This document shows, one piece after another, positions 1 to 64,000 of a DNA stretch of 64,000 bases; the first letter of the stretch is position 1, and each line of letters opens with the position of its first letter. Source of the stretch: Kappaphycus alvarezii. Lineage: Eukaryota > Rhodophyta > Florideophyceae > Gigartinales > Solieriaceae. Position numbers and translations under genes: made by a program. The notes beneath the pieces were generated by a model that did no database searches, was not told the DNA's origin, and worked only from the letters and a program-made list of their open reading frames with translations. The stretch covers positions 620,001-684,000 of the forward strand of contig NADL03000697.1 of assembly GCA_002205965.3 (NCBI GenBank), given 5' to 3'.

Positions 1-3000
1 GGCGCATTCATCCTTCCCCTTCGGTACATTACCCTTTTCTTACTCAGGTTTATACGATCTAACACGTACTAGCGAACCTAATATGCTAATTGCCGCAGAT
101 TTGATGGCGTATATAATCACCAGTGCGGTGCACTGGCACCACTATTTCCTGTAAGTGTATTTAATCGCGGCCGTTCGATTTTTTTATGGCAACACTGGGT
201 ACGGATACCTCTCTTCATAAACTAGTCACACTTTTACGGAATTCGCGGCCACATAACAGTCAGGTACGTGTCTGTGGGACAGGTCATTTCCAGCGTGCAT
301 TCGCTGTTTTTCTTGATGCCCTGAAATTTCGAATAAATTTTAAATAGTTTGAAAAGGTTTTACTTGCTATTGTAGCCCGCGGCCATCATGGATATATCCA
401 TATAGCGCGGTGTGGGACTCATGAATAGAATAAATTTTACGTATTTGGGTTCTGTACTGGTTTAAAAATTAATTTATTGCAATATTTTGGATGGGCTGTT
501 TTGTAATAGTTGTTTCCCGGTAAAAGGTCCTAAATCCAAAAAAGTATTCTTTTTGTCCTATTGGCTCGTTTCAAATCCTTTTTTTCAGTCTGCCCATACA
601 ATTCTACTCAAAATACTGTGACCAAGTTTGGTGCTCTGCGGTTGATTCTTGGGCAAAGATTTGGGCTACTGAAAACGTGTGCCTAGCTACGGGTTGAGCT
701 CTATTTCCAAAATGCTTATTGTTTGATTTGAAAACATTGCGTTTCTTTACCGAGAATCTTTTTTCGGTGTCTCGCAGATAAGTTTTGCTCTTTTATAAAT
801 TTTCTTGCCTGCCATTCTTGTACAGTGTGCCTGGTCCGCTGGAAATGTACAGTATTCCTGAAAATGATCCGCGATTCGACTTTGACATCGAAAAAGCAGT
901 AAAAAAGGGCGATTAATGTGTAAAGAATAGGGACCAAATTTAATGACACAAAAAATGGAAATTTGTGCCGGAAAATTGGAAGTATTAAACTATGACGTAA
1001 GGAGTGATCGAGCAATCAACTAAACGGTCAGCTGCAGACACGCTGAGCACCTACAAGTCATTTGACGTACATAAACTCCTCTTGACATTCAGTTGAGACC
1101 CATCGGCCTGCATTGCCGTTAATTTCATTTTCATCTTCCCAATAGTTTGGCTCTCTTCATTTGATGAACTCTGTCAGAATTTTAGTAATTTTTTTTTTGA
1201 ATATTCGTACATTCAGTCGCTTCTATTGCTGCAGGAGCGCTTAGATAACTCGTTTTACAGTTCAGAGCACCCCATCTGTGACATTTATTCCTTCGTGCAA
1301 GTTAGCAAAGAGTTTTTCATCTCATTAAATGTATAGTGGGTGAGTAATATCCGAGACCTTTTTCTAGAGGGGTGATTAAAATTAGAATGCGCTCGCAATA
1401 CAAAAGATGGTGGGCTTAGAACTATATTTTCTTTTACTTGAAAAAAATTGGCTAATGCTTACTAGGGTCCTTAATGGCACAAAGAGGTAGTTGATTTGGT
1501 AGAAACAGTGAAGATATAACTGCACATGTGTGAAAAAGCGTTCCAACGAAGGGCAGAGAGGGTGCTGAAGTGTTTTGCTGTGAATTCGCAGGCTAGTAAA
1601 CAAACATCACCGAAAAAACTCTCCTATCATCATTTTTAACTTCATTCATCTCTTCAAATCATCATTTTGATCACGTAGTATCCCTAGCCAGTCCTCTCTC
1701 ATTTAAATTTTTCTCTGCAACAAAATCGTCCGGGGAGTTCAGTTTGCGTTATCTCGAAAGCGTATATGCTCAGATAATGTCTACCATACTTTACTCTAGA
1801 GCTTCATATATTGCGCATGAATCTCTTCGACTACCACCTTATTATTCTTTCAATACTATAAAAACTTAAGCTGCCGAGTGTATGACGATTCTAGAATATT
1901 TCGGAGGACGTACTAATATCTCATTTCAGTTTTTAAACCGTCAAGGCAATACAAAGAGTGATTTGTTCAGGCGGTAGCCTCGGGACTTATGAAACCGACA
2001 GAATATAGTCCGAACCCACCTAACTTGCCCCGAAGTGTGCTCTGAAATATTTTTCTGTATTTTCACACGCAATAACTTTATTTGAATCCCTTTGTTGGTT
2101 TCAGAACAACAATAATTCAATTTAATAGCCATTGAAAAGAATACGCACTGCCATAAAGGCTCATTATGCTGAATCACACAGCATCAATTCGTAAACAAAG
2201 AAAGTATCTTGGATGAAATCTTCTTCTCTCGTAAACCTCATTTACTCATCAACACTAGTGATATGGAAAGTTTCCTATAAACTAAAAAGACATGGGTTTT
2301 ATATCAAAATATTCAGTTCAAAATATAAAATTCGGAAAAATTAATGAAAACTCGGTTTTAAGGTATTTGAAGACGCCAAATTCCGGAGTAATTCAAACAT
2401 TTTCCGTTAAAATGCAAAAAATGATACCCAGGAGAGAAAATATTCTATCGCCGAAATGCCTAAACAACTGCCTATCAGAGACTAAGCAGCCAACCAGTAG
2501 TCCTTTTACCTCCTTTAAGGTTAGTTACCTCGAGCCAGCGCCTCGTCATGCTTCTTAAGATTGTATAAAAAAGAAAGGTCTGGGTTTGGATACTCGTGAT
2601 TACCCCCTCCAGCTCTTCTGCCACATTAAACGGTCTCAAAGAACTGTATTAAGCGTTTGGTAGGATAACTTGCACGTTCTGAATGAGATAAAGATCAAAA
2701 TTCGTAGCCAGAAAAGTATACCGAAATACAACTTTTACAATGAAATCACTCTGTAAAGATAGAGCTATGATTGCTAGCCTCCTTTTTGTTGAAAAACTAA
2801 AAAATAAGATGTTTCCTCTTTAAATGAAAAAATTAGTTCCCTGAAGGCGTGAGATACTTCCGATCATTTGGTATGTCAATTATAATTTCAATTTGCAATA
2901 AAATCTCAAACAAAACCATAAAGCATTACGGATAGTGCAGACCTTGACACTTTGAAAAAGCCTCTTTCTTAACGAAGATCACTCTAACAGCATTTTGTGC

Positions 3001-4120
3001 CGTCCAAACTCTGCAGACTAGTCATTTCTGGCCGTAAATATAATCTTGCCTCATTGATACATTATTCACACCGCTTTATCGCGGATCCACCTAAGGGGGT
3101 TCTCAATGTATGATTCAACGTAATAGGAGCATTCTAAATCTTACTGAAAACATCCAATGATTCTCCTTGGATGAATCCCGCATGAGATATCTTCTGTTTT
3201 ATGGTGTCATTTTTGATGAGTCTTACCCGTTTTATTTACTTTTGTGCAAGTCCAGGTACTTGTGAAACATAAATACTGCTTTTGCGATTTTGAAGTCGAC
3301 GAGCGATCTTTCGTAGATGATATTTCTACTTGAATCTATGCAAAGATCTTGTCCTGCTGTCGTGCTGTCACTTTCGTACCTTTGCACATTTAATTTCTTT
3401 TGAATGGATTTAATTGAGGTCCGTCGTTCGCTTGGGTCTGGAAAAAGAACAGTGAGGGGCTGCTGCTTTGCTGCAAGGGGGAAATAAGTTCACTTAAAAA
3501 GATTGAGAAATCACCTCAAACCATCCCTCTAGTTTTTATAGAGAACATAAAGGCTGATCTCGCATTCATCTCAGGTGTCATTTTTATTGAAAAAATGACA
3601 GTATAGCTGTTTTCTGCAGTTTATTTGCGTACTGTACAATCCGTCAGAACTTACCGACATATGTAGATGAATAACTATTTTATTTAACACGAATCCATAG
3701 CAACAAATTACAAATTACGGAGCGTTCTAAAAGGTTTTGAAATGCGAAACATTGAAAAAGTGAAAAATCAAATACCAATAATACAAGGCTAGCTGGCCAC
3801 GTTTAGTTCAGCTCATTTCAGCATTTCAAAGCATGACCGGGAAATCTCAAAATCCCTGGCCTTTACATGTGAAATGAGATGAATTACAACACATCCTACA
3901 TCGAATTCTTACAAGAATGCTCATCTAATTCACCTCTCCAACCCGTACGAACTGCACACCACCCAAAACTATCTCTTGTTCTATGGTTAGAACCAATTAA
4001 AGTGTATCTTCCCTGATCCTTTGATTTACTTTCGATCCAAAAATTCGCTACCTAATTTACCCACATCCTCTGCACATCAAAGCAATCAATCTCTTCCTTT
4101 CCAAACAATTACTATACCAG
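1..4120. other. AT-rich stretch without a recognisable gene
   Basis: No reading frame above about 100 codons and no conserved motif was seen on either strand. Short frames here have no domain character. I see no repeat shared with the rest of the window. Confidence 0.5.
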
Positions 4121-4132
4121 TGTAATCACTCT

Positions 4133-5240
4133 ATGATGGACTCTTCGGCTTTTCAACGAAGAACACTGGCTTTGTCTCAGGCGACACAACAGAAACGTTT
4201 GGAGCGAATCAGTAATCTAGACTACGTTGACAAAATAGATACGGAAGACGCTAACGGAGAAGTATCACAGGAAGAAGAAGGTGGATCGGGACTAGGAAAC
4301 AGTGAACCCCTGAACAATTTGACATGTCTTGTCATAACTTCTTGGAATTCGGCGGCTCCCGTCTTCAGTCAGTTGAGCCAAGTGTTGCAGTAGTACAGTT
4401 GCAAGCACTAAGCAGTGCTGAGTTCGTTGGAGATGATAGCATTGCTGACAAGACGCGTTGTCTCCTCAGACTTGAATTCCGCAAAGGATTTCGAGCGAAA
4501 ATAGTTGTTCGGTAATAATCTGTGCACATCAGTGCTCGAAGCGTTTAAAAAAAACGAGAGCTCGTATGCTGAACTACCGACTAAGCTCGAAATTATTGCA
4601 GTCAAACTGACGCAACGCAGATTTAGGTTGCACAAAGCGCTTCCATTGGTTGATTTCAAGAGGTTTGGGAAGAAAAAGAACCCACAGCTCTTCTAGAGTG
4701 CATGAAGCCGACTATCATAAAATTGATGAATTGACAAACGGTAATGAAAAGGTTCAATAGGTTGAAGGAGAATTTCCGTTTTTTGATAACGGATATGTGC
4801 AGGTTGGGCATCCTCCCCTCGTTAACGTAGATGTCTCCATATGTGACCGTGAGCCGAATTTCGAGGCGACAAAGTACTGTAGGCTGTTACGAGTGTTAGG
4901 AGATCCACGAATGATTGAGGCAAAAACTCAACTAATGGAACAGATAAAGGAGGAGCTTGAAAATACCTATGTTGATCCGTGGACAGAACAAAATGCGCCT
5001 CTATTTAACGAGACGTCATTTCGTCCTTGGCCGATTGACTGATTAAACAAGAGAGTGATAGAGGGCTACATTGAGGAACTGGATCCCAAATTGATTGTAA
5101 GTCGCAGAGACGAAGGATTTCTAAAGCGAAACTTTGGAATGTCCAAAACCCTTTATGGTGCTTGTAGGCATCGGTTTGAATCGAGGGGTAATAGTGACAG
5201 TGGGACGTTTTTTAAGCCACCTGCCACTGTACAGTGTTAA
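4133..5240 (+). other. cluster of broken short frames, unassigned
   Basis: Four short plus-strand frames follow one another (4133-4393, 4324-4515, 4505-4696, 4797-5042). They are acidic or mixed in composition and are separated by stops and frame changes, so this looks like one decayed coding region rather than four genes. The frame at 4797-5042 has a helical, charged C-terminal half. It adjoins the Harbinger transposase relic on the other strand and could be a partner ORF of that element, but I recognise no domain. Treat as an unassigned remnant. Confidence 0.2.
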
Positions 5241-5625
5241 CACATGTAGGTCTTCCATTTTTGGTAAGCGTTGTCTGGGGCAATAACGGCCCAATCTGGA
5301 AGAAGAGATGACATCAGATGATGATGTAATTTTATGGACCAGAATACAGTAAAATCATGCGTTGATCCAGAATGCCATGGAGCTACAAACAAGAGCTTGT
5401 AGTTAGCCCGAACTGCTGCTTCCACATAAATCGCGAAAAAAATTCTGTTGTAGCACTTTCTAGGATCGGGTGTGTCCGACAAATTCGGTTGCCAATTTTC
5501 AATTGGGATACCGTCTAAATGAGTGATGACTCCAAATTTCGGGGATCTTCGTTCATCACAGGGCCGATTTGCACCATTTCTACAATCGTTTTCAGATTGG
5601 GTAAACGATATAGCATTTGGTTTTT
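5190..5625 (-). pseudogene. PIF/Harbinger-type DDE transposase relic
   Basis: Reading the minus strand from about 5625 down, a continuous frame carries the order typical of the PIF/Harbinger nuclease (DDE_Tnp_4 family). First comes a FGVITHLDGIPIE segment with the first catalytic Asp. Then follow a tyrosine/aromatic-rich strand, a WHSGSTHDF turn (family form: PGS-x-HD), and an APDNAY segment with the second Asp. After a frame change near 5238, a TLYSGRWL stretch resembles the family's 'LTPYSGR' motif. The third acidic residue and the end of the domain are not recognisable, and upstream the frame soon meets a stop. These enzymes cut and join the ends of class II elements; this copy is clearly dead. 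Terminal repeats were not found. Confidence 0.6.
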
Positions 5626-5829
5626 TTGTTCATTGCTTATAACGTTTGGTTAAACAAAGCTTAAGTTGTTGCTGTTCCAATACCGTAAGGCAACCCAAGT
5701 CAAGGTAGCTACCTCTCACTAATATCTTGAGAGTAACACAAAGCACTATTGTTACTGGTACGGTGGCTGCCACATCGGTTTCTCTGATTATCTTCTTGAC
5801 AGCATCGGAACGATGAGACTACATAATCA

Positions 5830-6480
5830 CTCGAATTAGTGCTTCACCCCACGGCAAAATCGCTTGAAATGCCTTTTTCCGATGGCAAGAACATGAATCT
5901 CACACATCGATCAGTTATTCCATCCGTTTTACCGATGGCGATATGTGCAATAGTTGACAAGGTCAGAACAGCACCGACAGAAAAACTCACTGTTGCAATA
6001 TTGCCTCTCGGAACCCCAACCTGCCAGTCCAGATACCGCGTGCGATTTCTTGCCTGGCATGAGTAATTAGGAGTTGGACGAAATTTTTCGTTCATGATGG
6101 GCGATCTTATCTTGTGACTCTGGGAAGAATGTCAGGGGATTACCTTGTACCCCGTACACATTCCATCCTTTCCACTCTTTCATTTTTCATTTTCTTCTAA
6201 AAAGCTAAAGAATGGATTTCTGTGCTGAAACTGTGTAGAGCGCGCATGTAGGGTCGCGCGAGAGTTTCGGGAAGGAAGCGTTACGCGGAGGAAGGGGTGA
6301 CGGTGATCGAGAAAGGAAGTGGGGAGATGCCGGATTTTGAAAAATTGTTGTTGTTGTTCCCTTTTTTTCTCCCTCTTCTCTCCCCCTAGCTACATAGGGG
6401 TGCTGAATAACGCACTGTACAATATCAGAATAAACGAGCCAACGTGAGCAGCCCGTAGTGGCTAGTGTGAGTCTGTAATG
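5830..6480. other. intergenic, no recognised gene
   Basis: Overlapping opposite-strand short frames at 5839-6095 show no domain. The stretch 6240-6300 is GC-rich and the composition shifts here from the AT-rich left arm to the gene island. Confidence 0.35.
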
Positions 6481-6491
6481 CGGGTGACTGT

Positions 6492-6512
6492 TGTACAGTA
6501 CTGTACAGTACA
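6492..6512. promoter_or_regulatory. TACAGTA palindrome cluster upstream of the channel gene
   Basis: Two directly adjoining, overlapping copies of a palindrome built on TACTGTACAGTA lie about 330 bp upstream of the first recognisable codons of the channel gene. Single variants occur nearby (6412-6421, 6645-6653) and in front of the next gene (about 8341-8375). The arrangement looks like a dimer-binding site, but it could be a simple repeat; the same word dominates 34,480-34,632. No factor is assigned. Confidence 0.25.
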
Positions 6513-6839
6513 GGCCACAAGTTCACTGTGCAAAATGTTATTCAAAACGATCAGTCCAACTACAGCAAGGCCAAGTCTGAAGGTTTTGCTCACCTCAATT
6601 CTTCACACCCCAATTGGATTGGGTAGTGTTGTGCACACATGTACCGTACAGTAAATCGCAAGCAAAGGGAGCATCCGCGATTTATTACAACCGAGCACTT
6701 TCGTTTCCACTTGGACGCAATTTGCAACGAGTCAGCCCATCCGGTACCAACCATGAACAAGGAAACAGACCGAAATTATCCCGACCCCCCCCACATTCCC
6801 CCTCCACAGCCGCCTACCAAAAAACACCCAGTCGCCGCA

Positions 6840-8078
6840 ATGACTTTCTCACCTCTCTCCGGCCTCCATCTCACCACCTGCACCCTGCAAATCCCGCCCT
6901 ACCTCTTCAACACCACCCCGCAACCGGCATAGCCATATCCTACCTCAACAAACTCCAAACCAATCTCAACTTCACCACCACCCTACAACCCTGGCCCCAC
7001 TCCCCAAACGCCCTTCTCCACGCCTTTACCAACTCCACCGCACCATGTGATCTTGCGGTAGCCCCATTCGCCATAACCAACACACGCTTCGAGTCCAACA
7101 TTTTCCTCTCCCCATTTGCATCCGAATCCTATCGCATGCTACAATCCAAAGCTGCTTTGAACCCGGGTTCCACCCCTGGTTTGTCTTTCGTACATTCTCC
7201 CCGCTCGTATGGCTCCTTCTTTTCCTCGGCATGTTCCTTCATGCTATCGGCACCTTGCTTTTCTCACAGCCTGTACACCACGCGGATACCAACAATCAAA
7301 CCGCCATGCAACAACTCCGCGTCCTTCCTGCATCCGTCTTGAATGCGTATGCACAACTTATCGGACACGCTGGAGCACAATCGATGAAAACACCCAGCTT
7401 TCATCGTGCCGCATGGCTTGTCCTTGGATTGACATCGGGTCTATTCCTATTAGCTGTGTATGAGGCCAGTCTCACCGTCTTATTATTCGAGACTAGCCGC
7501 AAATCACAGTTTGAATCTCTCGATGATATTAAGCGTTGTGCCATTGATCCCGCCAAAGTAGCCATGGTAGCAGATAGCGCCAGTCAGGATTTTTGGAACT
7601 TTGCCGTCAACACGACATCATGGCGTGAAGAATGCGGATGGCATGTGCCGGGTGTGACCGTAGATACTATGGACCAAGGGTTTGAGAGTGTTAAATCAGG
7701 GCACGTGGATTACTTTTTCGATTTGGAAGGCGTGGTTTTGACGCGTGCAAATGCACAGTGTGGTGAGTTTGTGCTGGTTGGGGAACCGTTTTTTTCTACG
7801 AGTTTAGGGTTTGTGATAAGTAAAGAATTGGGTGTGGAGGTTGCAAGGTGGTTGTCGAGGGAGACTCGGTTGTTGAGGGAGCAGGATGGGTTTGAGAGTG
7901 CGAGAGTGTTTGCGATGAATATGGGATGTGATGAGACGGTGACGGCGACGGTGGGGGTGTCGGATTTGTGGGCTTTTTTGGAATGTATGGAGGGGTGTGG
8001 AGTGTTTTGCTGTTGTACAGGTTGTGGCTGCTGAGGAAAAGGGGGAGGAAAGTGGGAGTGGGGAGTGGGGAGTGGTAG
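6840..8078 (+). CDS. ionotropic glutamate receptor-like ion channel, frame broken three times
   Basis: The reading frame has the full iGluR order without an amino-terminal domain. S1 (6840-7150) contains CDLAVAPFAITNTRF followed by LSPF, with the Arg that binds the ligand alpha-carboxylate in animal receptors. M1 is PLVWLLLFLGMFLHAIGTLL (7195-7255). A pore-like stretch follows (about 7335-7375), then M3 with VYEASLTVLLFE in place of SYTANLAAFL (about 7405-7490). S2 has SLDDIKR, VDYFFDLEG and VLVGEPFFSTSLGF (7510-7960). M4 is GFFGMYGGVWSVLLLY plus a basic tail, stop at 8076. The frame changes three times, near 6916-6919 (CCCC), 7173-7176 (CCCC) and 7974-7979 (TTTTTT), each time as if one base were missing. 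Otherwise there is no stop in about 410 codons. Either the sequence has homopolymer errors or the gene is freshly dead. The start is uncertain: in-frame ATGs also lie at 6639 and 6753, and no signal peptide is obvious with any of them. Role by family: ligand-gated cation channel in a membrane. Confidence 0.72.
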
Positions 8079-8592
8079 CGACAGCGGTGATTGATTGTGC
8101 AGGAGTGCGGATGGTGTAGAGCTGCGATGTCATGATGGTCGGTGAGTTTTTGAGTTGGCGGTGATTCGTAGGGGCAGCGCATTTGGCAAGCGTGCAGCGA
8201 CATGATGGGCGAGCGGTTGGTTGCAACTTGACACAAGCGCATGGACCCCATTGCCTCGTTCCAACAGAGGAAAGACGAGAGGCCGTCGCCACTTGAACTG
8301 ATGCCTGCCGATCGATGGGATCGATTGCTGTATGCGGTATGATACAGTATTGCAATGGTCCCGTGAGCGTATACAGTGCAGTTTTGTCACTCCACTGTAA
8401 GCTACAAGCAACAACACAGCAAGTACACGTGTACTTTATTTTCCTGTAATTTCAGTGTGCAGATTGGAACGGCGTTGGGCACAGCAGGTTTCAACTTGAT
8501 CCCTTGGTGCTCATCCGCTTCAGCCTTGTCGTCCTCTCGTCCCGCTCTTCTCAACCATCTCACACCTCAATCCCTCTCATCCGCACAACCAC
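8079..8592. other. intergenic between channel and YqgF-like gene
   Basis: Long minus-strand frames here are antisense shadows of the channel S2 region. The stretch just before 8593 is C/T-rich and holds TACAGT words (about 8341-8375) that may belong to the next gene's promoter. No TATA box was recognised. Confidence 0.4.
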
Positions 8593-9210
8593 ATGGCTTC
8601 CGCTGCAGTCGCTCGTCCTCCCCTCTCCTCCCTCCTCTGCAACTCCCTGTCTCAACTCCGGAAATCTCTCTCCCCAACATCCCGTCTGCTTTCCCTCGAT
8701 GTCACCACCAGCCATGTCTCCCTCGCCCTCTCCAATTCCGATCGCACCATCGCAGCTCCCTTCGGTTTTCTCAACCGCACCGCCGTCCCTCGCGCCGATG
8801 CTATCATCCTTTCCTCCGCCCTCCACCACGCCGCGCAACAACAATCGCCTCACTCTCTCAACCTTCATGCTCTAGTCGTCAATGTCCCACCATTGGCAGA
8901 TTCTGCCAGTATCGCAGCCTACGTCGACGACATTTTGCGCGAGGGAAACGGATTCCAGGATATTGGAAGCGTCTTGTTTTTTTCAGAGGGTCATGTCTTG
9001 CAGACCATTTTGCAACAACAGGTCGATTATGTCAATAGTCTTCATTCGTTGCCGTTGAGGATGGAACCCAAGCAGAGGAGAAGGTTCCTTGCGGCCATGG
9101 ACCCCATCGTTGACGTTAACACCCTCACCGACTCATACCAGCAACGTGCCCGAATCTCAGCGAGCGAAACCCTCCAGGTCGTGTTGGACCAACTGAAAAG
9201 GCTTGAGTAA
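8593..9210 (+). CDS. YqgF/RuvX-like RNase H-fold protein, probably organellar
   Basis: This is an intact 205-codon frame. Residues 1-30 are rich in Ser, Leu, Arg and Ala with almost no acidic residues, as in organelle-targeting peptides. Residues 33-50 (LLSLDVTTSHVSLALSNSD) match the first strands of the YqgF family, whose usual form is L-x-x-D-x-G-x-x-R-x-G-x-A-x-S-D, and keep the first catalytic Asp. ALVVNVPP (about residue 95) corresponds to the second hydrophobic strand (VVGLP). LFFSEGHVLQTI lies where the family has a D-E-R-x-[ST]-T segment, and the C-terminal ISASETLQVVLDQL lies where D-x-x-AA-x-x-ILQ-x-x-L is expected. Two of the usual acidic or basic positions are therefore replaced, so nuclease activity is doubtful. 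YqgF proteins act on rRNA precursors or Holliday junctions. The start codon follows a C-rich leader. Other fold assignments cannot be excluded. Confidence 0.5.
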   Translation: MASAAVARPPLSSLLCNSLSQLRKSLSPTSRLLSLDVTTSHVSLALSNSDRTIAAPFGFLNRTAVPRADAIILSSALHHAAQQQSPHSLNLHALVVNVPPLADSASIAAYVDDILREGNGFQDIGSVLFFSEGHVLQTILQQQVDYVNSLHSLPLRMEPKQRRRFLAAMDPIVDVNTLTDSYQQRARISASETLQVVLDQLKRLE

Positions 9211-10062
9211 CCAAATCCTATGATCCCCCATTTTGCATTCTACTTTGTAGCCCGTTCATACCCCTAATACACTCTTCAGTTTTCAAGTTTGTAACGTTGT
9301 CATCATCCCCGCACGCTTCCTGGTCAAGCAACTACAACTGCGCTAATGGAGAATGCAAAACACTTTTGCAGTTGCATCTGAGTAATACGGAACAATTTGT
9401 ACGTTTCCCTATGCCACGCTGTAGCAACGTGAGCGTGGCTGTAATCATGCTTCAAGGGGAGTGTGGTGCGATACTTGCACAATTCTGACTCACTGCAGGT
9501 ATCCCTGCAAAACGATCGGATGAGTCGTCGCCAAAGGGTCTGCACTGCTGATCACAACGTTTCAACCGATATGTGATGATAATTACGCTGCCCTCGGAGA
9601 CGATACAGCAATATGGCTCATTGGTCAAGTCTCAAAGTGTTTTAACTGTTTTTCCTTTCTCAAACCTCACGAAACCGATCTCTCTGGACCGACTGCTGAC
9701 GCGTAATCCGCGCTTCTCTGTGCTTCTCTTTCCCTCTCAGCAACCCCGTCAGACCTCCCATTTGGCTTCACCGATGAAAAAAAGGGACGTAAGAACAAAA
9801 AAAAAAGACTCACGATTCACCTGCCCCAATGAGTACATGCCATGGTTGCCTCAGCGCCGATGACAGTCCGCGTGGAGGGGTTAGACTTGTCACGGTGCCT
9901 CTTTCCAACCTCTTGTGCAGTCTCCGTGGCCGATATCCCTGCGGATATCGTCTCCCTTCCCCGTCGAAAGACCTCTTCAGCAATGGGCTTGCGGCCGCCC
10001 ACGCGGACCGTTTCGCGGTACGAACAGCGGCATTGAAATCGTCCCCCTTTTCAACTCGTGTG
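9211..10062. other. intergenic, promoter side of the zinc-finger gene
   Basis: Frames of 60-126 codons on both strands in 9297-10086 show no domain character. The last 300 bases become GC-rich and lead into the TATA box at 10,063. Confidence 0.4.
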
Positions 10063-10070
10063 TATAAAAA
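10063..10070 (+). promoter_or_regulatory. TATA box of the zinc-finger gene
   Basis: TATAAAAA lies 131-138 bases before the ATG at 10,201, in a GC-rich surround, with a leader of CA-rich sequence after it. Position and context fit a core promoter for a transcript starting near 10,095. Confidence 0.6.
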
Positions 10071-10200
10071 GACCCCCGTTCGCTGAAAGCATCAACTTTA
10101 CGTCTTTCCAATACAACAACCGCAGCCATCAGCATTCAGCAGCCTGACAGTTTCAGCAGCACACACTGCAAGTTCAGCTATCAAACCCTCCATCGCCATC

Positions 10201-11009
10201 ATGTCCTCCGCCGAGAACAAGGATTTGCTAGGGAAGATGTTTTCAAGCTTTGTCGCACGCAAGACGCGTGTGATTTCGCCACAACCTGCAGGACCTCCCA
10301 TGGAACCGCTGCCTGCGTTGTCCTTGCGTCCAACGGATTTGGTAGAGCAACGAGATGCGAAACGATCGAGACCGTCACACAGTACTCGCAGCTCTCCGAA
10401 AAGTTCTCGTGTTTCTGCCTCCGTCTCTGGGCGTGTACCGGAACGTCGAGGGGCGAGTAGTGTGAGGCCGATTGCCAAAAGTCAGACCTCAGTTGAAGCA
10501 ATTGCAACAGACTCGACGTCGATTCCAAAGCCGTTTCATTGTGAAAAGTGCTCGTCGGCATTCCGACAGAGGTCGCAGTTGTCGCGACACTTTCTGAGAG
10601 TGCATGAACGACAGAAGCCGTTTGCGTGTGCACACTGTGATAAGTGTTTTGCGTCGGCGTTTGATCGGAAGCGTCATGTCGAGGTACGTAAATTGTTGTT
10701 GTTTACTTTGTTGGCTTTAAGGCCGTCGGTATGCGTATTGATTGGTGGAGAACTAAGTGTGAGATGATGTTGTTGTTGTTGTATGTATGCGTGTGCGTGA
10801 ATGATGGCGGATGATAGGCGGTTCATGGAAGGCGATGCATTGAGTTCTTTTGTGACCGATGCCCGTTTCGTGCCAAAGAGCAGCAATTGTTGACGGCGCA
10901 TATCCGGGCGACTCATGAGCGAGACCAGTGCCGTCAATGCGGCAAGGTGTTCAAACGTCCGGCGAATTTGCTCGCGCATGAACGTCACTACCACTCGCGC
11001 GCTGAATAA
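10201..11009 (+). CDS. C2H2 zinc-finger protein, two exons, four fingers
   Basis: Exon 1 is 10,201-10,683 and exon 2 is 10,818-11,009, with a 134-base intron (GTACGT...TAG) in phase 0; joined length 224 residues. Residues 1-110 are low-complexity, rich in Ser, Arg and Pro, and probably disordered. Four fingers follow: CEKC...H-x4-H from about residue 115, CAHC, CDRC and CRQC. All have spacing C-x2-C-x12-H-x4-H, and the linker KPF precedes fingers 1 and 2. The intron falls between the two zinc-binding His of finger 2, and splicing restores the second one (codons GCG GTT CAT). That is strong support for the junction. Without splicing the frame ends at 10,767 inside the intron. The role is presumably a sequence-specific DNA-binding regulator in the nucleus; the target is unknown. 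Confidence 0.82.
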
Positions 11010-11639
11010 GGAAGAGAAATGGGTCGGGTGAGATGCTTTGGTGCTGGAGGTGTCAACGGAGGGGACTGAATGAAGGCTGGATTTCTTGAAGGTGACGGCA
11101 GATGAGAGGAGTTTTGGTCGAGATTAATTGGACGAGGAATGACGGGAAGGATATACGCGCGGACCGTGTGGGCGGGTACTGAAGAGGAGGGTGTGTGAGA
11201 ACTAACTACTTGTTAATTAAGAATTGACTTGGAGAGTAGAGTTGTAAAGCGGAGGTGTGATGACGATGACAAAATGATCACGCAAGCAGGGAACAGTTTG
11301 TGCCGGCTTTGAATGGCGGTGGATAAAATGTTTGATAAAGAAAACGGGGACCTTGCGACGACTGCAGCTGGCGCAGAGTCCCCCGAGTTTCTGTTGTTTG
11401 TGTATTGTGTATGTCGACAGAGCGTTTGAACCAGAATGGGCACGCTACATCCCCATTGAAAAGTGTTGGGTTAAGGATATCTCGATTGATCGCAGGGACT
11501 TCGAGCGTTTCAAGAAGTTAAGGAAACCTCGTTTGGATGGTACGAGCAACGTCAAGGTACTGTTTCATACAAGAACTGGGTACGATACTGATTTGCGGGA
11601 GTACAGTTCCTCGCTCTTCTGTGTGAACCCCTGGCTCGT
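11010..11639 (+). other. 3' flank of the zinc-finger gene and an unassigned open frame
   Basis: From 11,332 a plus-strand frame stays open to 11,871. Its first part (to about 11,600) is a charged segment with Trp and Tyr that I do not recognise. Its second part is the beginning of the LINE reverse transcriptase remnant, so the first part may be the same element's N-terminal side. Confidence 0.3.
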
Positions 11640-13479: not shown

Positions 13480-14395
13480 ACTGGGCCACAGGCATCCTGA
13501 TCCCGGTTCACAAACGCGGGGACCAACAAACTCCAGCGAATTACCGCCACTTTGCCTCTTATCGCATTGCCGGAAAGCCATCGAAGGAGGTCTCGCCTCT
13601 GTCCTAGCCGACCTCACAGACTCCCACCCTATGCAATTTGGCTTTCAAAGAAGAATAGCCCCCTCCACGCCTTCATAGCCACGGAAGCAGCCATACGACA
13701 AGGGGACCGCTGGCTCGCTGCCCTGGATATGCTCAAGGCCTATGACAGGGTCAACCGCCAACTGCTCCTACACGACTGCGCACGCATGCTCCCCTACACA
13801 GAAACAGCCATGATAAGAGCATGCCTCCTGCCTCTCACGGTCCGGACAAGAGACGATTGTACCCCTACGACAACGGTAATCCGCCTCGGTCTTACCCATG
13901 GTTCCCCTCTCTCCCCACTCCTTTCAATGTCTTCATCAATGGTCTTCCCGAGGCCCGGACGGCCATCACGACCTCCCTCTCCCTCCCTCTCCCTCCCTCT
14001 TCCATGCAAACTATTCGCAGACGACGTCCTCCTCCACTCCTACGACCCTTCCCTCCTCCAGACTATTCTCGACGAATGTCAACGGTGGACATCCGCCAGA
14101 CATATGAACTGGGCACCCAACAAGTGCATAGTAATCTCCCAACACCCGGCTCACCCAACACTACCACTGACAATACAATCCACGGCGATCCCTCTCTCCG
14201 ACAAGGCCCGTTACCTAGGATGACAATCACCCCCCTGGGGATACACCCCGACGCGACCATCATCAGGGCACAACGTACCCTACAAAGCACCCGGTCCCTG
14301 TTACACGCAACGCCCCTCACTACTGACATGACCCCTGCCCGTCCTGGCCACCTCCTCCACACCTTCATACGGGGATGGGCACAAGATTTCCTCTA
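13480..14395 (+). pseudogene. second LINE remnant: reverse transcriptase palm
   Basis: A different non-LTR reverse transcriptase. HKRGDQQTPANYR (13,509-13,550, family: K-K-G-x-x-x-x-x-x-NYRP), LDMLKAYDRVNRQLL (about 13,720) with the first catalytic Asp, LTHGSPLSPLL (about 13,890), and FADDVLLHS (from 14,014) with the Asp-Asp pair are all visible. A KARYLG stretch (14,205-14,222) matches the segment after the palm. FNVFINGLPEA lies in another frame between two compensating shifts. It starts directly after the previous LINE ends and continues toward 14,395, where it is cut. Role by family: target-primed reverse transcription; this copy is inactive. Confidence 0.7.
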
Positions 14396-14439
14396 GAAAA
14401 AGTCGCGATTAAAGTTTCATACCTTCTGCGCTTGGCGGA

Positions 14440-15080
14440 TAAGCTGCATTGAGGGAGGTGGGCGGATTAAGAGTACATGCTCTTCTATTAGAAGGCGCCA
14501 CGGGTTGACGTCGCAGAGTGCACAAGTCCCGTTCAGTCCATACTGCGAGAGCCGTTCAAGGCAGCTGAGGTCGGGCTTAAACATGAGGCTATGTACCCAT
14601 TTCGCAACACGAATACGCGGCTCATGAGCATTCATCTGCACACGCGGTGTGATGCAGCAAACACCTCGCTGCCTCCCGTGGTGAGTTGCGACGCCGCAGT
14701 AACATTGCCATATCAAGTGAGCTTTGTATCTTTGGTAGCACGTGAAGCGCGTGCCGTTGCGAATGCAGTGGAAAGACGGAGCCAGGGGACCTTTCCACCG
14801 AGTAGCAGCTACTCCTGGCTAGACACTGCCGGATAATCGATACTAGGATGGAACTCTGCCGCGCTAGCTTCCGAATTGTTGGGATCACCGTCAGTGACGA
14901 TGTTCGAGGTCATTGGTGAAAATAAGGCTGAGCAACTCGCGACGGATGTGTGACGGCGACAGAGCAGCCTCGGTTCCATCAGAGGCATACCGTAGGTGCG
15001 CCATATGGGCACCTTGTGAGCAGCGTACAAGATATCGTGTCCTGAAACAATCGCAGATTATCCACAATACGGTATGCAAA
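14440..15080 (+). pseudogene. LINE endonuclease-domain fragment
   Basis: The plus frame at 14,591-14,836 contains DAAVTLPYQ and then REARAVANAVERRS. The same words recur in the better preserved LINE fragments at 34,645-35,004 (AAYDITVSS, EARRAANAAERRK) and, on the minus strand, near 54,520. This places it in the restriction-like-endonuclease part of a LINE C-terminus. The rest to 15,080 is frame-shifted and not recognisable. Confidence 0.4.
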
Positions 15081-21509: not shown

Positions 21510-21585
21510 ATTATCACACAACCCATATTATTTGGGCTGCAGCGAAAGTTAAATGATCCGAAGCCACATGAAAAATTTACCGATA

Positions 21586-21637
21586 GAAATCTGGATAAGT
21601 GCTGCCAGGACTTCCTAGCAGCACTTATCCCGATTTC
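21586..21637. repeat. 20-bp inverted repeat (hairpin) near left end of copy A
   Basis: Arms GAAATCTGGATAAGTGCTGC and GCAGCACTTATCCCGATTTC pair over 20 positions with a single mismatch, around a 12-base loop. The same hairpin is at 60,402-60,453. It lies 76 bases inside the left boundary of the repeat. Confidence 0.75.
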
Positions 21638-23911
21638 TGTGATTTATTGCTCGGGATGTTTCAATACGATGAGGTTGTCACTTTTTCTTTAGATTTTACA
21701 AAAAGAGTCTCTTTTCGTCATTTTCGTGTGACTTAATAATTTCAACACCATGCTTAGTTCTGAGGAGAGAACGTTTTGTCGTAGGAATTTGAAAATCAAA
21801 AATAGAGGCTTGGATAACAACTGTAAAAATTCTAGTTTCCCTTATTAAAGAAATATAAAGTGGGGCGCGAATAGCGCTAAAGTCTCACTAATAGAAGCGC
21901 CTTACTCCATTACTTGAAGCCTTTGAAACCATCTCGTTGAGGTGTAGAACAGGAGCAGTCTTTTGAATCATGACACCCACCCACTTTACTGGAACTACCT
22001 AGTTCTTCTATTGTCAAAGTTTTACTCCTCTGGCCTTTCCGTATCACTAACATTACCTCTTTTTCTAAATTTGGTTTTTACTCCACCATGACCCCGAAAT
22101 ATTAATTTTATCACAAGAAAATACAATTTGACCACATTTTACGATGCATAAATGATAAGTTCCAAACGAAAATATGTCTGTCTTATGAACTCTGGAAAGA
22201 GACACGACATAAATTTTCGCTCCCTTCCAGGTCTTAACAAACTTATGTGGTTTCACTTTCCTACAAATGTTTTACTTTTTACTTATGAATGCGACACAAA
22301 ATTACCCATTGAAACCCAGAAAATATTTGGAAAACTTCCACCAACCTCCCTTACGTCCAATAACATGCTGAATTAACATTTGAACAGACTGATATTCATT
22401 CTAACCCCGTGAACTAAATTTAATGACCAAAATAAATACATATTTCATAATATATCTCAAAAAGTTCGAAAGATCCCTGAAATTAAATGAAGACGTTGAT
22501 GAGCAGCCTGAATGATGAAGCACACTCCACCGATCCAAAACAAATTCGTGTAAAATCGAACGCTTTTTCATAGATTAGAGAAATGGTGTCTAATCTTCCT
22601 TACGTCCAACGCGTACGTAAGAATTTATACACCTTTTTTAATGCTCGAATCAGTTATTTAACGATCCATTTTACTGCTAAACGAAACCAAGTAACACATT
22701 AGACATGGATTTCTCAACTTGTTCCATGTAATAGACCACTACAGGCCCAAATATAATTTAATACTAGGTAACTCCTAATTTTTTAACGCTAAAAAGAATC
22801 CAGACTGAAAACCCGCTCACTGAATCAACCATGGAAGAACTCGCGCACAGTTAAAACAAACGTCCCCTGAATGAATGAAACAAGATAAACACCCAAAATT
22901 GCAGAAATAAGAAATGAATTTGGTTTGCATTCATCGGGGAAGCTCTGTATTCTAGTGCTTCAGTACCCCATCTCACAGCAATAAGTGGAACAGCAGCGCA
23001 CCGACAAACCGAAATCCACCAAAAGTTCTTCCTTAGTGAAATCGGCTACATCACGCTACAAAGTAAGATGGAAAATCTGGAAAAAAATTTTAGAGGAGTC
23101 GATTTTACAGAATAAGACGCCAACGTCATCCTTTTATTGTTTACTACTGCAGCGAAGTTTTCCTGAGTTAAAGTATCATACTTAGGAACGTAGGACACCC
23201 TACACGACCCATAAATTACAAATAACTACGCATCATCAACGAAATAAGAACAAATTGGCCGTAAACCTCAGAATAGTGAGCCAAGGAAGCCTTCAAAATG
23301 ATATATAAGCATGTGAACAGGCGCATGCGGAACTCTCTACCTCAGACTATAAAAGCACATTCAGATGGATACAGGAAAGGAAAGAACTGAAACGAGGGCT
23401 CGTTAAAGTTACTAGAAGGTATAAACATAATGCAACCCTTCATTTGAACGGTAAGCCGTTATTTGGTAGTAGAATACCGCATACTACAATATTTTTGCTG
23501 CGACTCGAACAACACCTCTTTATGTAAGGTTAGAAAAGCCCATATTTACAAACTAATAGCGATTCTCATAGGAAAAAAGTGGCCCATCTGACACTTCTAC
23601 ATCAAGGAAGCATACATGAAATAAACATGAGAAGCACGAGAAAACGGTCTTCTGCACATACGTGATAAAACTAAATTATACGGAACATGCTGACAATCTG
23701 GATATACTTCTGCCATTATTCACAATAATTAAGGTAAAAGATGCTGCCAACAAATGATTCCAATTCACAGTGAAAAACCTTACAAAAGCACGGCTAGAAA
23801 AAAGATGTTTCCCTTTCTCAGGGACCATCTATAAGAAAACCGTACTCATAGCCTTTTTTAGTTTCACCAATGTAGTGCAATGCACTATGCGCTGTAGCGC
23901 TGGGGGAGGTC

Positions 23912-24785
23912 TAGCAGATTTTCTGCTAAGCCCAGGTGGACTTTGTATTTTGGCCAAGATGGCACACTGCATTTAGTGTGTAGTCGTACATGTGTAGTGT
24001 AATGTACTTTACAGTGGGTAGCACCACGTTTGTAGTTGTGTGTAAGGTGCCACACACCTTTTAGTGTTAGTTAGTCTAACAAGGTTGCGAGACCTTTTGT
24101 ATTTGTGTCGAGTGGGGTCATTTAAGTGAGCTCAGCCACTTGACTTGAAAACGAACCGGAGGGGGGTTCACCCTCTGGTCAAATTCTTTTCCTAGAAAAC
24201 ACGCTTTACTTTGCATTCTACAACAGCTTTTCGGCTCGGTTCCCTTTGTGTACCGCTACACCCCTCCTTTGGATGTCTCCTTCATTCCAACAAAGACTTT
24301 TGCCTCACTTTTCTTTTACTAATGGTTTTCACCGTTACCCTGTTACCAGGTTGACAAGTGCGTCCCGTACTTCTTGACGCCCTCACAGCGGAGTTGCGAC
24401 TCCGGGTGAGGAAGGTACTTCCCGGATAGCACAGGTTCGATACCTCGGAAGGGGTCCGTCCCCTTCTCGGGAAGGTGTCCAATAGAGACACAAGGTTTCT
24501 CATCGTTGGCTGCGTGCCAACACTCCGCAGGAGTACTTTCGAGTAACACCGAGGTTGCTCTCCGTGGCTGGTTACCGCCACCAGTTCAAGGACCGTAAAG
24601 GCCATCGGCCTTACAACCCGGCTTAAGTGTAGTCGACGCACTTTGGCAACCTTTGCCGTTCTTCAATCTCTACCACCCACACACCTCCGCGTGTGTACGA
24701 GCTACTGGAGCTCGCCAGGCTCCTTAAAGAAGAAAGGGGGAACTCGAACGCCCCGTGGTTCGTCCTTTCACATCTCGATTAGATG
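23912..24785. other. stem-loop array in copy A
   Basis: At least a dozen short hairpins follow one another with little spacer. Examples: 23,912-23,928 (AGCAGA/TCTGCT), 23,963-23,980 (CACACT/AGTGTG), 24,044-24,060, 24,066-24,080 (GTTAG/CTAAC), 24,081-24,096, 24,156-24,178 (CCGGAGGG/CCCTCTGG), 24,382-24,410 (CTCAC and GGAGT nested), 24,448-24,466 (GAAGGGG/CCCCTTC), 24,505-24,521, 24,522-24,534, 24,541-24,560, 24,595-24,614, 24,679-24,696 (ACACAC/GTGTGT) and 24,698-24,714 (CGAGCT/AGCTCG). GC content is higher than in the rest of the repeat. The pattern suggests a folded RNA or a DNA structure with a function in the element. I cannot match it to a known RNA family. Confidence 0.55.
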
Positions 24786-25201
24786 GTTTGTGTGACCTTT
24801 GTGTTGGTTTTGGTTTCCGTCCAGTGGTTTGCAGGACCATTGCACCACAACCAAATTCAAACCTAGTGAGCGATATTTGCGATATATTTTACGAAAATTA
24901 TATAATGTGAAAACTTAGAGACATCATCCACCTACAAAAATTGGCGTATAAACTCCTCAGTACACGCTAGTATCAATATTTCGCAGTTGCATGTATTCCA
25001 TTTACTTCTCCAAAAATGAAATATTTCTCATAAAAAGAACTGGTACATCCCCTTTCTTAAAAGCAAACTAGAAAACAACCAATGAATCTCAACCGCCCAC
25101 TATCCATACAAGTCAGTACGTGATATTACTGGGTGAGATACCTTACAACTCAGACAGAACTCTGCCTAAAACTATCTTTTCTAGGAGCAATATCCCAGAT
25201 A

Positions 25202-35004: not shown

Positions 35005-36100
35005 CCTTTGCTGCTTCTGCGATTGGTGGAAGTAACATGTAGACGTTCTGCGTTCCGCACCAAAAGTAGTTAGCTTTAGCGGCCCTTAACAAGTACTGAA
35101 GAAAACTAATGAGTAAACCAATCGTATGTGGTGCTGTGCCACAAAGAATGCAGAGGAGTCTTTCTAAGAAGTGATAAACTTTTCGATGTTTTTTCAGGGG
35201 CTTGATAAGCAACAAAAGCGGCTTCTGAAGTATCGTTGGGGCTCTATTTTGTACATGGAAAAATGTAGTTCCCACTGATATGTAGTACACGCTGAAGCGT
35301 TTCCCTCGCATAGAAAAGCGAGACCCCGCGAAGCGGGTCGAGATTTTAGGGTCTTGTTGTAAAATAAAAATTAGTTGTATACCTGTACAGTGAGGGGAAT
35401 CTTTTAATGCGTTCAAAACCCTGAACCGTACAGGTAGTGGTTACACTACATAACGAAGACTGACAGCATCTCCATGCGACGCCTGAACCCTCACCTACTC
35501 AAACAAGGACAAAGGGGGAACTTTAAGAAAATTTCACCATCTAAATTCGGGATCCAGACAGCCTGAAAAACTTCTAGTGTAAGCATGATAACTTACAGAC
35601 GACGACAACAAAGACGAAGAAAAAACCGGACGAACGAACTTGCCGACGGACTGACAGGTCTGCACCGACCACGCTCATTCGGAGACTGTAATAAAGACAG
35701 TAGGTTGAAAAGCGACAGGAAACAGCAAACTTTGAAACTCTGTTTCGAGTGGAAGAGCCGTCCTTACAAGTCTTTCCCAGGACGTCCCACGTGCGTTGGG
35801 GGCGCGGGACGACCATCCACTCGAAAAAACCATTAGCAACAACGATGCAGCGAGAGATCTGGAGTCATGGTTGTTCCGTCGCCAGGACATGCGCGCCCGC
35901 GTCAAGTTCAGCGCGGGCATCGAGAAGAGCGAAAACAAAACTTGAGGAGGTCAGTAAGGTAGGGAGGATGGTGGGGACACTTAGTAGGTACAGTGGTGGT
36001 GGTAAATCTTTATGGATTGTACAATGTCGCGTGTGTGTAATCTTTACAGGGTGTGGAAAAAGCATGTGGGAGAAAATGCTGAGAGGGATGACAGAGAAAC
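35005..36100. other. unassigned stretch
   Basis: Frames at 35,585-35,836 and 35,749-36,120 (plus) and 35,675-35,938 (minus) are basic and show no domain. The stretch from about 36,000 is the reverse complement of 52,430-52,720 and belongs to the next LINE fragment's 3' UTR. Confidence 0.35.
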
Positions 36101-54150: not shown

Positions 54151-54545
54151 GCATAGTCTTGAGTACCCCACTGTAACAAACCTAAAACAATTAAGTTTGA
54201 ATAGGGTGGCTAAACTCTGCATGTTGTGGGGCGCGACATAATACAGACGCCGCACAAGTGGACCAAATCGCATAACTAAGCTGCTGATAAAGCCGAGTCT
54301 TCACTCCTCCCGCCGAGCATGCGCTGCGGGTTGCGACAGCGGCAGCGTATTCGTCGATTACCTTCAACGTCGTCGCAGACGGCGATCCAAGTGAGTCGAA
54401 GGCTAGCGGCACAAACTTCCATCCCAGTTTTGATCGTCCTGGGAGGGCTTCACTGGGGATGGCTGCTACTTTGCTGGCAAGCTCCCTATTTTCCGTCTTT
54501 CCGCTGCATTGGCAACGGCGCGCGCCTCACGCGCGCCAATGGACA
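54151..54545 (-). pseudogene. LINE C-terminal fragment
   Basis: On the minus strand, REARAVANAAERRK near 54,525-54,480 is followed after a frame change by VPLAFDSLGSPSATTLKVID and KTRLYQQLSYAIWSTCAASV (54,412-54,230). The last stretch parallels TRIYQRISSALWSSVA of the LINE at 13,080, so these two belong to one subfamily. Confidence 0.55.
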
Positions 54546-60060: not shown

Positions 60061-60401
60061 TTTCTCAAAATTCAATCCACGGTGAACCGTAACAATTTTG
60101 TCTTTCTTTATAGAACTTTATGACTTCATTTGATGCGATGTAAAACTTTCAGAATATATCTACCGATTCGTGATTTCTCAAATCCACTAATCTAGACCTT
60201 CTATTCTGCCAGTCGGAACATTTAGCTCTGGTCTCCTATTTGCCGTAGTTTGGGTCGAAATTGGACGATTAGAAATAGGAACCTATCGCAAACTGCCAAG
60301 TTTCAGCATTTGAAAACATAAGTCATTATCACACAACCCATATTATTTGGGTTGCAGCGAAAGTTACGTGATCCGAAGCCACATGAAGAATTTACCGATC
60401 G

Positions 60402-60453
60402 AAATCGGGATAAATGCTGCGAGGACTTCCTAGCAGCGCTTATCCCGATTTCT
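60402..60453. repeat. 20-bp hairpin near left end of copy B
   Basis: Arms GAAATCGGGATAAATGCTGC and GCAGCGCTTATCCCGATTTC. The mismatch of copy A is repaired here (GGG/CCC), and the new changes give one T-G wobble and one A-C mismatch. Confidence 0.75.
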
Positions 60454-62699
60454 GTGATTTATTGCTCGGGATGTTTCAATACGATGAGGTTGTCACTTTT
60501 TCTTTAGATTCTACAAAAAGAGTCTCTTTTCGTCATTTTCGTGTGACTTAATAATTTCAACACCATGTTTAGTTCTGAGGAGAGAACGTTTTATCGTAGG
60601 AATGTGAAAATCAAAAATAGAGGCTTGGATAACAACTGTAAAAATTCTAGTTTCCCTTATTAAAGAAATATAAAGTGGGGCGCGAATAGCGCTAAAGTCT
60701 CACTAATAGAAGCGCCTTACTCCACTAATTGAAGCCTTTGAAACCATCTCGTTGAGGTGTAGAACAGGAGCAGTCTTTCGAATCATGCCACCCACCCACT
60801 TTACTGGAAGTACCCAGTTCTTCTATTGTCAAAGTTTTACTCCTCTGGTCTTTCCGTATCACAAACATTACCTCTTTTTCTAAAATGTGTTTTTACTCCA
60901 CCATGACCCCGAAATATTAATTTTATCACAAGAAAATACAATTTGACCACATTTTACGATGCATAAATGATAAGTTCCAATCGAAAATAGGTCTGTCTTA
61001 TGAACTCTAGAAAGAGACACGACATAAACTTTCGCTCCCTTTCAGGTCTTAACAAACCTTATGTAGTTTCACTTTCCTACAAATGTTTTACTTTTCACGT
61101 ATGAATGCGACACAAAATTACCCATGAAACCCAGAAAATATTTGGAAAACTTCCACCAACCTCCTTACGTCCAATAACATGCTGAATTAACATTTCAACA
61201 GACTGATATTCATTCTAACCCCGTGAACTAAATTTAATGACCAAAAAATACATATTTCATAATATATCTCAAAATGTTCGAAAGATCCCTGAAATTAAAT
61301 GAAGACGTTGATGAGCAGCCTGAATGATGAAGCACACTCACCGATCCAAAACAAATTCGTGTAAAATCGAAAGCTTTTTCATAGATTAGAGAAATGGTGT
61401 CTAATCTTCCTTACGTCCAACGCGTACGTAAGAATTTATACACCTTTTTTGATGCTCGAATCAGTTATTTAACGACTCATTTTACTGCTAAACGAAACCA
61501 AGTAACACATTAGACATGGATTTCTCAACTTGTTCCATGGAATAGACCACTACAGGCCCAAATATAATTCAATACAAGGTAACTCCACTTTTTTACGCTA
61601 AAACGAATCCAGACTGAAAACCGCTCACTGAATCAACCATGGAAGAACTCGCGCACAGTGAAAACAAACGTCCCCTGAATGAATGAAACAAGATAAACAC
61701 CCAAAATTGCAGAAATAAGAGATGAATTCGGTCTGAATTCATCGGGGAAGCTCTACATTCTAGTGCTTCAGTACCCCATCTCACAGCAATAAGTGTAACA
61801 ACAGCGCACCGACAAACCGAAATCCACCAAAAGTTCTTCCTTAGTGAAATCGGCTACATCACGCTACAAAGTAAGATGGAAAATCTGGAAAAAAATTTAG
61901 AGGAGTAGATTTTACAGAATAAGAAGCCAACGTCATCCTTTTATTGTTTACTACTGCAGCGAAGTTTTCCTGAGTTAAAGTATCAGACTTAGGAACGTAT
62001 GGCACCCGAGAAGACCCATAAATTACAAATAACTACGCATCATCAACGAATAGAACAAATTGGCCGTAAACCTCAGAATAGTGAGCCAAGGAAGCCTTCA
62101 AAATGATATATAAGCATGTGAACAGGCGCATGCGGAACTCTCTACCTTAGACTATAAAAGCACATTCAGATGGATACAGGAAAGGAAAGAACTGAAACGA
62201 GGGCTCGTTAAAGTTACTCGAAGGTATAAACATAATGCAACCCTTCATTTGAACGGTAAGCCGTTATTTGGTAGTAGAATACCGCATACTACAATATTTT
62301 TGCTGCGACTCGAACCACACCTCTTTATGTAAGGTTAGAAAAGCCCATATTTACAAACTAATAGCGATTCTCATAGGAAAAAAGTGGCCCATCTGACACT
62401 TCTACATCAAGGAAGCATACATGAAATAAACATGAGAAGCACGAGAAAACGGTCTTCTGCACATACGTGATAAAACTAAATTATACGGAACATGCTGACA
62501 ATCTGGATATACTTCTGCCATTATTCACAATAATTAAGGTAAACGATGCTGCCAACAAATGATTCCAATTCACAGTGAAAAATCTTACGAAAGCACGGCT
62601 AGAAAAAAGATGTTTCCCTTTCTCAGGGAACATCTATAAGAAAACCCGTACTCATAGCCTTTTTTAGTTTCACCAATGTAGTTCAATGCACTATGCCTG

Positions 62700-63605
62700 T
62701 AGCGCTGGGAGAGGTCTAGCAGATTTTCTGCTAAGCCCCAGGTGGACTTTGTATTTTGGCCAAGATGGCACACTGCATTTAGTGTGTAGTCGTACATGTG
62801 TAGTGTAATGTACTTTACAGTGGGTAGCACCACGTTTGTAGTTGTGTGTAAGGTGCCACACACCTTTTAGTGTTAGTTAGTCTAACAAGGTTGCGAGACC
62901 TTTTGTATTTGTGTCGAGTGGGGTCATTTAAGTGAGCTCAGCCACTTGACTTGAAAACGAACCGGAGGGGGGTTCACCCTCTGGTCAAAGTCTTTTCCTA
63001 GAAAACGCGCTTTACTTTGCATTCTGCAACAGCTTTTCGGCTCGGTTCCCTTTGTGTACCGCTACACCCCTCCTTTGGATGTCTCCTTCATTCCAACAAA
63101 GACTTTTGCCTCACTTTTCTTTTACTAACGTTTTCACCGTTACCCTGTTACCGGTTGACAAGTGCGTCCCGTACTTCTTGACGCCCTCACAGCGGAGTTG
63201 CGACTCCGGGTGAGGAAGGTACTTCCCGATAGCACAGGTTCGATACCTCGGAAGGGGTCCGTCCCCTTCTCGGGAAGGTGTCCAATAGAGACACAAGGTT
63301 TCTCATCGTTGGCTGCGTGCCAACACTCCGCAGGAGTACTTTCGAGCAACACCGAGGTTGCTCTCCGTGGCTAGTTACCGCCACCAGTTCAAGGACCGTA
63401 AAGGCCATCGGCCTTACAACCCGGCTTAAGTGTAGTCGACGCACTTTGGCAACCTTTGCCGTTCTTCAATCTCTACCACCCACACACCTCCGCGTGTGTA
63501 CGAGCTACTGGAGCTCGCCAGGCTCCTTAAAGAAGAAAGGGGGAACTCGAACGCCCCGTGGTTCGTCCTTTCACATCTCGATTAGATGGTTTGTGTGACC
63601 TTTGT
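62700..63605. other. stem-loop array in copy B
   Basis: All hairpins listed for copy A are present. The one at 63,342-63,361 (GAGCAAC/GTTGCTC) is fully paired here, while copy A has GAGTAAC with a wobble pair. Length changes fall mainly in loops or between stems. Confidence 0.55.
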
Positions 63606-64000
63606 GTTGGTTTTGGTTTCCGTCCAGTGGTTTGCAGGACCATTGCACCACAACCAAATTCAAACCTAGTGAGCGATATTTGCGATATATTTTACGAAAA
63701 TTATATAATGTGAAAACTTCGAGAATCATCCACCTACAAAAATTGGCGTATGAACTCCTCAGTACACGCTAGTATCAATATTTCGCAGTTGCATGTATTC
63801 CATTACTTCTCCAAAAATGAAATATTTCTCATAAAAAGAACTGGTACATCCCCTTTTTAAAAGCAAACTAGAAAACAACCAATGAATCTCAACCGCCCAC
63901 TATCCATACAAGTCAGTACGTGATATTACTGGGTGAGATACCTTACAACTCAGACAGAACTCTGCCTAAAACTATCTTTTCTAGAGCAATATCCCAGATA

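Follow-up and report, generated by a model that had tools for sequence, protein, structure and literature searches.

A divergent ionotropic glutamate receptor-like gene with a broken reading frame in the red alga Kappaphycus alvarezii: a possible young pseudogene

Background

Many members of the ionotropic glutamate receptor (iGluR) and glutamate receptor-like (GLR) family carry an amino-terminal ANF_receptor domain, and iGluRs that lack an amino-terminal domain are already known. Bacterial GluR0-type channels have no such domain, and GluR0 is also devoid of M4 and has a K+-type filter. Among algae, passages of published accounts report GLRs in diatoms and brown algae (PMC11085791) and in Ulva (PMC9266709). 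The corresponding passages on the red algae Neopyropia yezoensis and Neoporphyra haitanensis give three GLR genes per genome, and added L-glutamate is said there to have affected spore release in N. yezoensis (PMC8969420).

The locus described here occupies positions 6840-8078 (+) of a 64,000-nt window, the whole stretch of Kappaphycus alvarezii DNA that was analysed. From its sequence, it is very probably a distant and divergent member of the iGluR/GLR family. Likened by description only to the Neopyropia and Neoporphyra GLRs, as portrayed in those passages (PMC8969420), it falls in the same broad family but differs in that the Kappaphycus copy is broken in frame.

Results

Reading frames were followed on a map of open reading frames (ORFs). 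Plus-strand frame 0, with an ATG at 6840, is stop-free from 6627 up to the stop codon whose last base is 6932; frame 2 is stop-free over 6581-7342 and frame 1 over 7051-8034, and frame 0 is again stop-free across 7935-8078, where it provides a short last piece. This succession (0, 2, 1, 0) places the open frames where the original prediction had put them, and as written in the assembly the gene is not readable as one protein. The predicted runs lie at the breaks (CCCC at 6916-6919, CCCC at 7173-7176 and TTTTTT at 7974-7979). The changes 0 to 2, 2 to 1 and 1 to 0 do belong to one class, as had been claimed, although that class stands for one base fewer or, equally, two bases more, and the third change is weak. 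Intervals for the first two changes were placed by eye at 6906..6922 and 7158..7180 (+), each containing its CCCC run. The reading of the breaks as homopolymer losses agrees with these runs, but runs of at least four make up 105 of the 1239 bases of the gene, where a run of this length also falls in 25-33% of intervals 17-23 bases long. Micro-introns at the breaks were rejected by eye; the motifs on either side are contiguous to within one base.

Frames were scored with a codon model that was trained on two intact neighbouring genes and that penalises stops. The frame read in each piece scored higher than its alternatives, at +0.7 versus -5.9 and -11.9 for the frame-0 piece, +3.3 versus -18.1 and -43.2 for the frame-2 piece, and +13.6 versus -111.2 and -128.8 for the frame-1 piece. 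The Viterbi path of the model called coding only at 7280-7995 (frame 1), and thus codon usage alone misses the S1 pieces. Over 7980-8075, frames 0 and 2 scored 1.8 and 1.9, and frame 1 scored -5.9, with -6 coming from one stop; the best 19-residue hydropathy values starting inside the T run were 1.32, 1.25 and 1.24 for frames 0, 1 and 2, respectively. Homology taken together with frame score gives good support to the first and second frame changes. The third, from frame 1 into M4 in frame 0, is plausible but weak because neither codon score nor hydropathy picks the M4 frame.

For homology searches, the frames were joined by hand with an X at each break. Using phmmer against the PDB, the joined frames matched NR1 (PDB 5uow; E 3.6e-4) in a single alignment of query residues 69-331 that runs from late S1 across M1, the pore and M3 to S2. 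The ligand-binding domain of AvGluR1 (PDB 4io2) aligned in two core stretches of 14.8 and 6.2 bits, a distant likeness at E 4e-4 overall. There were 76 PDB matches at E up to 10, and among the 60 listed all 60 are iGluRs. In Pfam, SBP_bac_3 (0.03) and then Lig_chan (0.083) matched in that order in the profile check that had been proposed, but both fell below their cut-offs. Lig_chan reached 14.6 bits with frame 1 alone and 13.1 with the joined frames, compared to a curated cut-off of 30.8 that is a criterion of convenience rather than of biology. As controls, a reversed copy and four copies shuffled within 12-residue blocks were searched. None of the five matched SBP_bac_3 or Lig_chan in Pfam, where two gave weak unrelated matches only, and the reversed copy had one unrelated PDB match at E 0.98. 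The homology of the joined frames is above chance, and the predicted iGluR identity is upheld because the joined order and the E values stand against clean controls.

No second copy was found in the window, the best other tblastn match of the three pieces having an E of 2.7. The frame-1 piece (7162-8034) had no relatives in virus and prokaryote contigs, which says little because the contigs are viral or prokaryotic and a search with one query finds only close relatives. Its structure, predicted from the single sequence, was too poor to use (mean pLDDT 45.5, pTM 0.25).

On the joined frames, S1, M1, the pore stretch, M3 and S2 can be recognised in this order. From the ATG, 6840..6916 (+, frame 0; sequence and codon score) would form the first strand region of S1, and by eye we take it to resemble an S1 start. 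The remainder of S1 follows at 6920..7173 (+, frame 2), and its later part aligns to NR1. The S1 arginine of this family binds the alpha-carboxyl of the ligand; here, the codon at 7085-7087 aligns with that of NR1 (APFAITNTRFE versus APLTINNERAQ), which suggests that the ligand-binding arginine is present. In frame 1, M1 is placed at 7204..7263 (+) by the NR1 alignment and by a hydropathy of 2.25, the top value among the stretches examined, and the pore-helix stretch at 7324..7374 (+) by the same alignment. M3 lies at 7408..7491 (+) opposite that of NR1, and its motif VYEASLTVLLF (7456-7488) retains NR1's SYTANLAAFLV only in part. The S2 lobe spans 7492..7974 (+, frame 1) on the basis of its alignments with NR1 and with the second stretch of AvGluR1, of which the AvGluR1 one is weak alone; the pattern CGEFVLVGEPFF is retained opposite CDLVTTGELFF. 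Past the proposed third frame change at TTTTTT (7974..7979, +), a candidate M4 with a short tail was picked by eye at 7980..8078 (+, frame 0; stop at 8076-8078), and it is present only beyond that weakly supported break.

Besides being distant from NR1, the locus differs from it in the altered M3 motif and in that no amino-terminal domain was found upstream. Pfam gave no ANF_receptor match in the three plus-strand frames of 1-6902, in a search that is insensitive here even to the receptor core. By hydropathy, no hydrophobic leader continuous with S1 was found; the upstream maxima (1.48 at 6577 in frame 1 and 1.22 at 6327 in frame 0) both lie in other ORFs. The claim that everything needed for an iGluR is present is not borne out so far, given that hydropathy gives no continuous leader and that the gating motif is altered. 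A pyrimidine-rich stretch at 6780-6809 (+), ending in AG before S1, was noticed by eye and could be the 3' splice site of an upstream exon.

Discussion

We regard it as an even chance that the locus is a divergent minimal iGluR gene of the form S1-M1-P-M3-S2-(M4) that small indels disabled in the recent past, leaving a young pseudogene. Starting from the homology, the domain order and the frame breaks observed in the assembly, the following course is hypothesized. In the intact ancestor, an amino-acid-like ligand would have closed the S1/S2 clamshell, and this closure would have pulled on M3 and opened a cation pore; both ligand binding and cation passage are putative. Small indels would then have disabled the copy recently, if the breaks are also real outside the assembly.

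The stretch of about 413 codons contains zero stops and its breaks are all of one class and located at runs, which speaks against decay and had been counted against it in the original prediction. The expected numbers do not bear this argument out. Only 135 of the 3699 single-base changes that the frames allow (3.65%) create a stop. Twenty other repeat pairs of the window (at least 80% alike over at least 100 bases, with E no higher than 1e-20; some of them not independent) differ by 499 substitutions versus 45 gaps, or about 11 substitutions per gap. At this ratio, three indels would be accompanied by about 33 substitutions, for which about 1.2 stops are expected, and the probability of zero stops is about 0.3; the chance of three shifts in one class is 0.25 even without deletion bias. 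Stop-free, one-class breaks thus fit decay as well as error. The choice originally offered, between a wrong assembly and a very recent loss, is still possible, but the stop and direction argument behind it does not carry. Gaps of one or two bases dominate the dead repeats of the window (40 of 45 gaps across the 20 pairs), so breaks such as these look like local decay. The two genes just downstream are also unbroken, over 618 and 675 coding bases. The first is a 205-residue ORF (8593-9210, +; codon model) without a Pfam name, which is presumably YqgF/RuvX-like judging by its motifs. The second is a C2H2 zinc-finger gene (10201-10683 and 10818-11009, +; exons inferred) with an inferred 134-base, phase 0, GT-AG intron at 10684-10817. 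Unbroken neighbours mildly favour real decay, since selection would keep them and the assembly would be sound here.

Somewhat short of even, in our estimation, is the explanation that the gene is intact and alive and that the assembly has lost a single base at each break. The absence of stops and the position of one-class breaks at runs of four to six are what such losses would leave. Repeat copies at 21510-25201 and 60325-64000 (97.3% alike) are separated by 79 substitutions and by 19 gaps, of which 16 are of one base and three of two; at 16 of the 19, the bases are missing from the 60325-64000 copy (binomial p 0.004). The substitution-to-gap ratio of this pair is distinct (Fisher p 0.0016) from that of the 20 others, which are not all independent. 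One-sided small gaps of this kind make assembly slips conceivable, but the gap-rich copy lies more than 50 kb from the receptor gene. The one-sided gaps of the 60325-64000 copy could themselves represent local assembly slips or one-sided decay. A/T runs of at least eight occur seven times in the window versus 13.6 expected under an order-2 Markov model, a scarcity that could hint at collapsed runs, but for runs of four to seven the model comes close to the observed numbers. A reverse transcriptase (RVT_1; 13500-14400, +; Pfam E 1.9e-14, frame 1) shows, by eye, five frame changes, four of the same class, and no stops; Pfam confirms only its main frame, and the continuation in other frames was followed by eye from motifs that we take to be those of reverse transcriptase. 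The adjacent pair of genes stands against slips near the receptor, remaining unbroken although their 1293 coding bases include 15 runs of at least four. Taken together, decay appears slightly likelier than assembly error.

It is possible but rather unlikely that the locus is an alive minimal iGluR without an amino-terminal domain, its M3 gate rewritten (VYEASLT for SYTANLA), in a lineage that belongs neither to animals nor to green plants. Were it alive, the locus would extend the record beyond those groups by one divergent, short iGluR. It would also inform how old the amino-terminal domain and the gating motif are, and the ancestral channel could be studied in a divergent receptor line. If dead, it would document the loss of a GLR copy. 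The evolutionary interest originally attached to an iGluR without an amino-terminal domain in such an alga is weakened, as iGluRs of this kind are known elsewhere. The interest is weakened further by red algal GLRs already in print, as far as passages of the published account go (PMC8969420): the locus joins a known family as one of its divergent members, and neither outcome would come as a great surprise.

Two further explanations were also weighed. A chance resemblance of hydrophobic and solute-binding-like stretches, with no iGluR behind it, is very improbable. Single frames are weak, in keeping with this idea: frame 2 alone (6920-7177) had five PDB matches, all iGluRs, at E 0.75-1.6, and frame 1 alone had three at E 1.1-1.3, none an iGluR and two of them ancestral CDT proteins, which are solute-binding, and Pfam stayed below cut-off throughout. 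It is countered by the ordered matches of the joined frames with their clean controls and by frame 1 alone, for which Lig_chan (0.03) was the sole Pfam family. Programmed frameshifting, in which the ribosome would shift three times and the gene would work as written, is barely credible. The third break (T TTT TTG) fits the slippery-heptamer rule for ribosomal frameshifting, which speaks for it; against it, both CCCC sites lack the required form, and we know of no nuclear gene with three programmed frameshifts.

Other ORFs of the window were surveyed as assembly controls. A total of 131 were kept (at least 85 codons, outside 6600-11100, not of low complexity), and 119 entered the main Pfam scan, which gave seven families with one ORF each: SRAP (E 0.0026) and six retroelement families. 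Seven of the 12 others were scanned separately, and those left out of all scans lie at 14066-14392 (-), 14625-14909 (-), 54291-54545 (+), 61596-61853 (-) and 62950-63210 (+). The SRAP ORF was rejected as an assembly control; its match goes back to a short segment near 35.8 kb, the SRAP-like RCIVVANGFFEW (35800-35860, -), without the rest of the domain. A weak DDE_Tnp_4 transposase fragment (5237-5629, -; E 0.0049, below cut-off) lies 1.2 kb upstream of the receptor gene.
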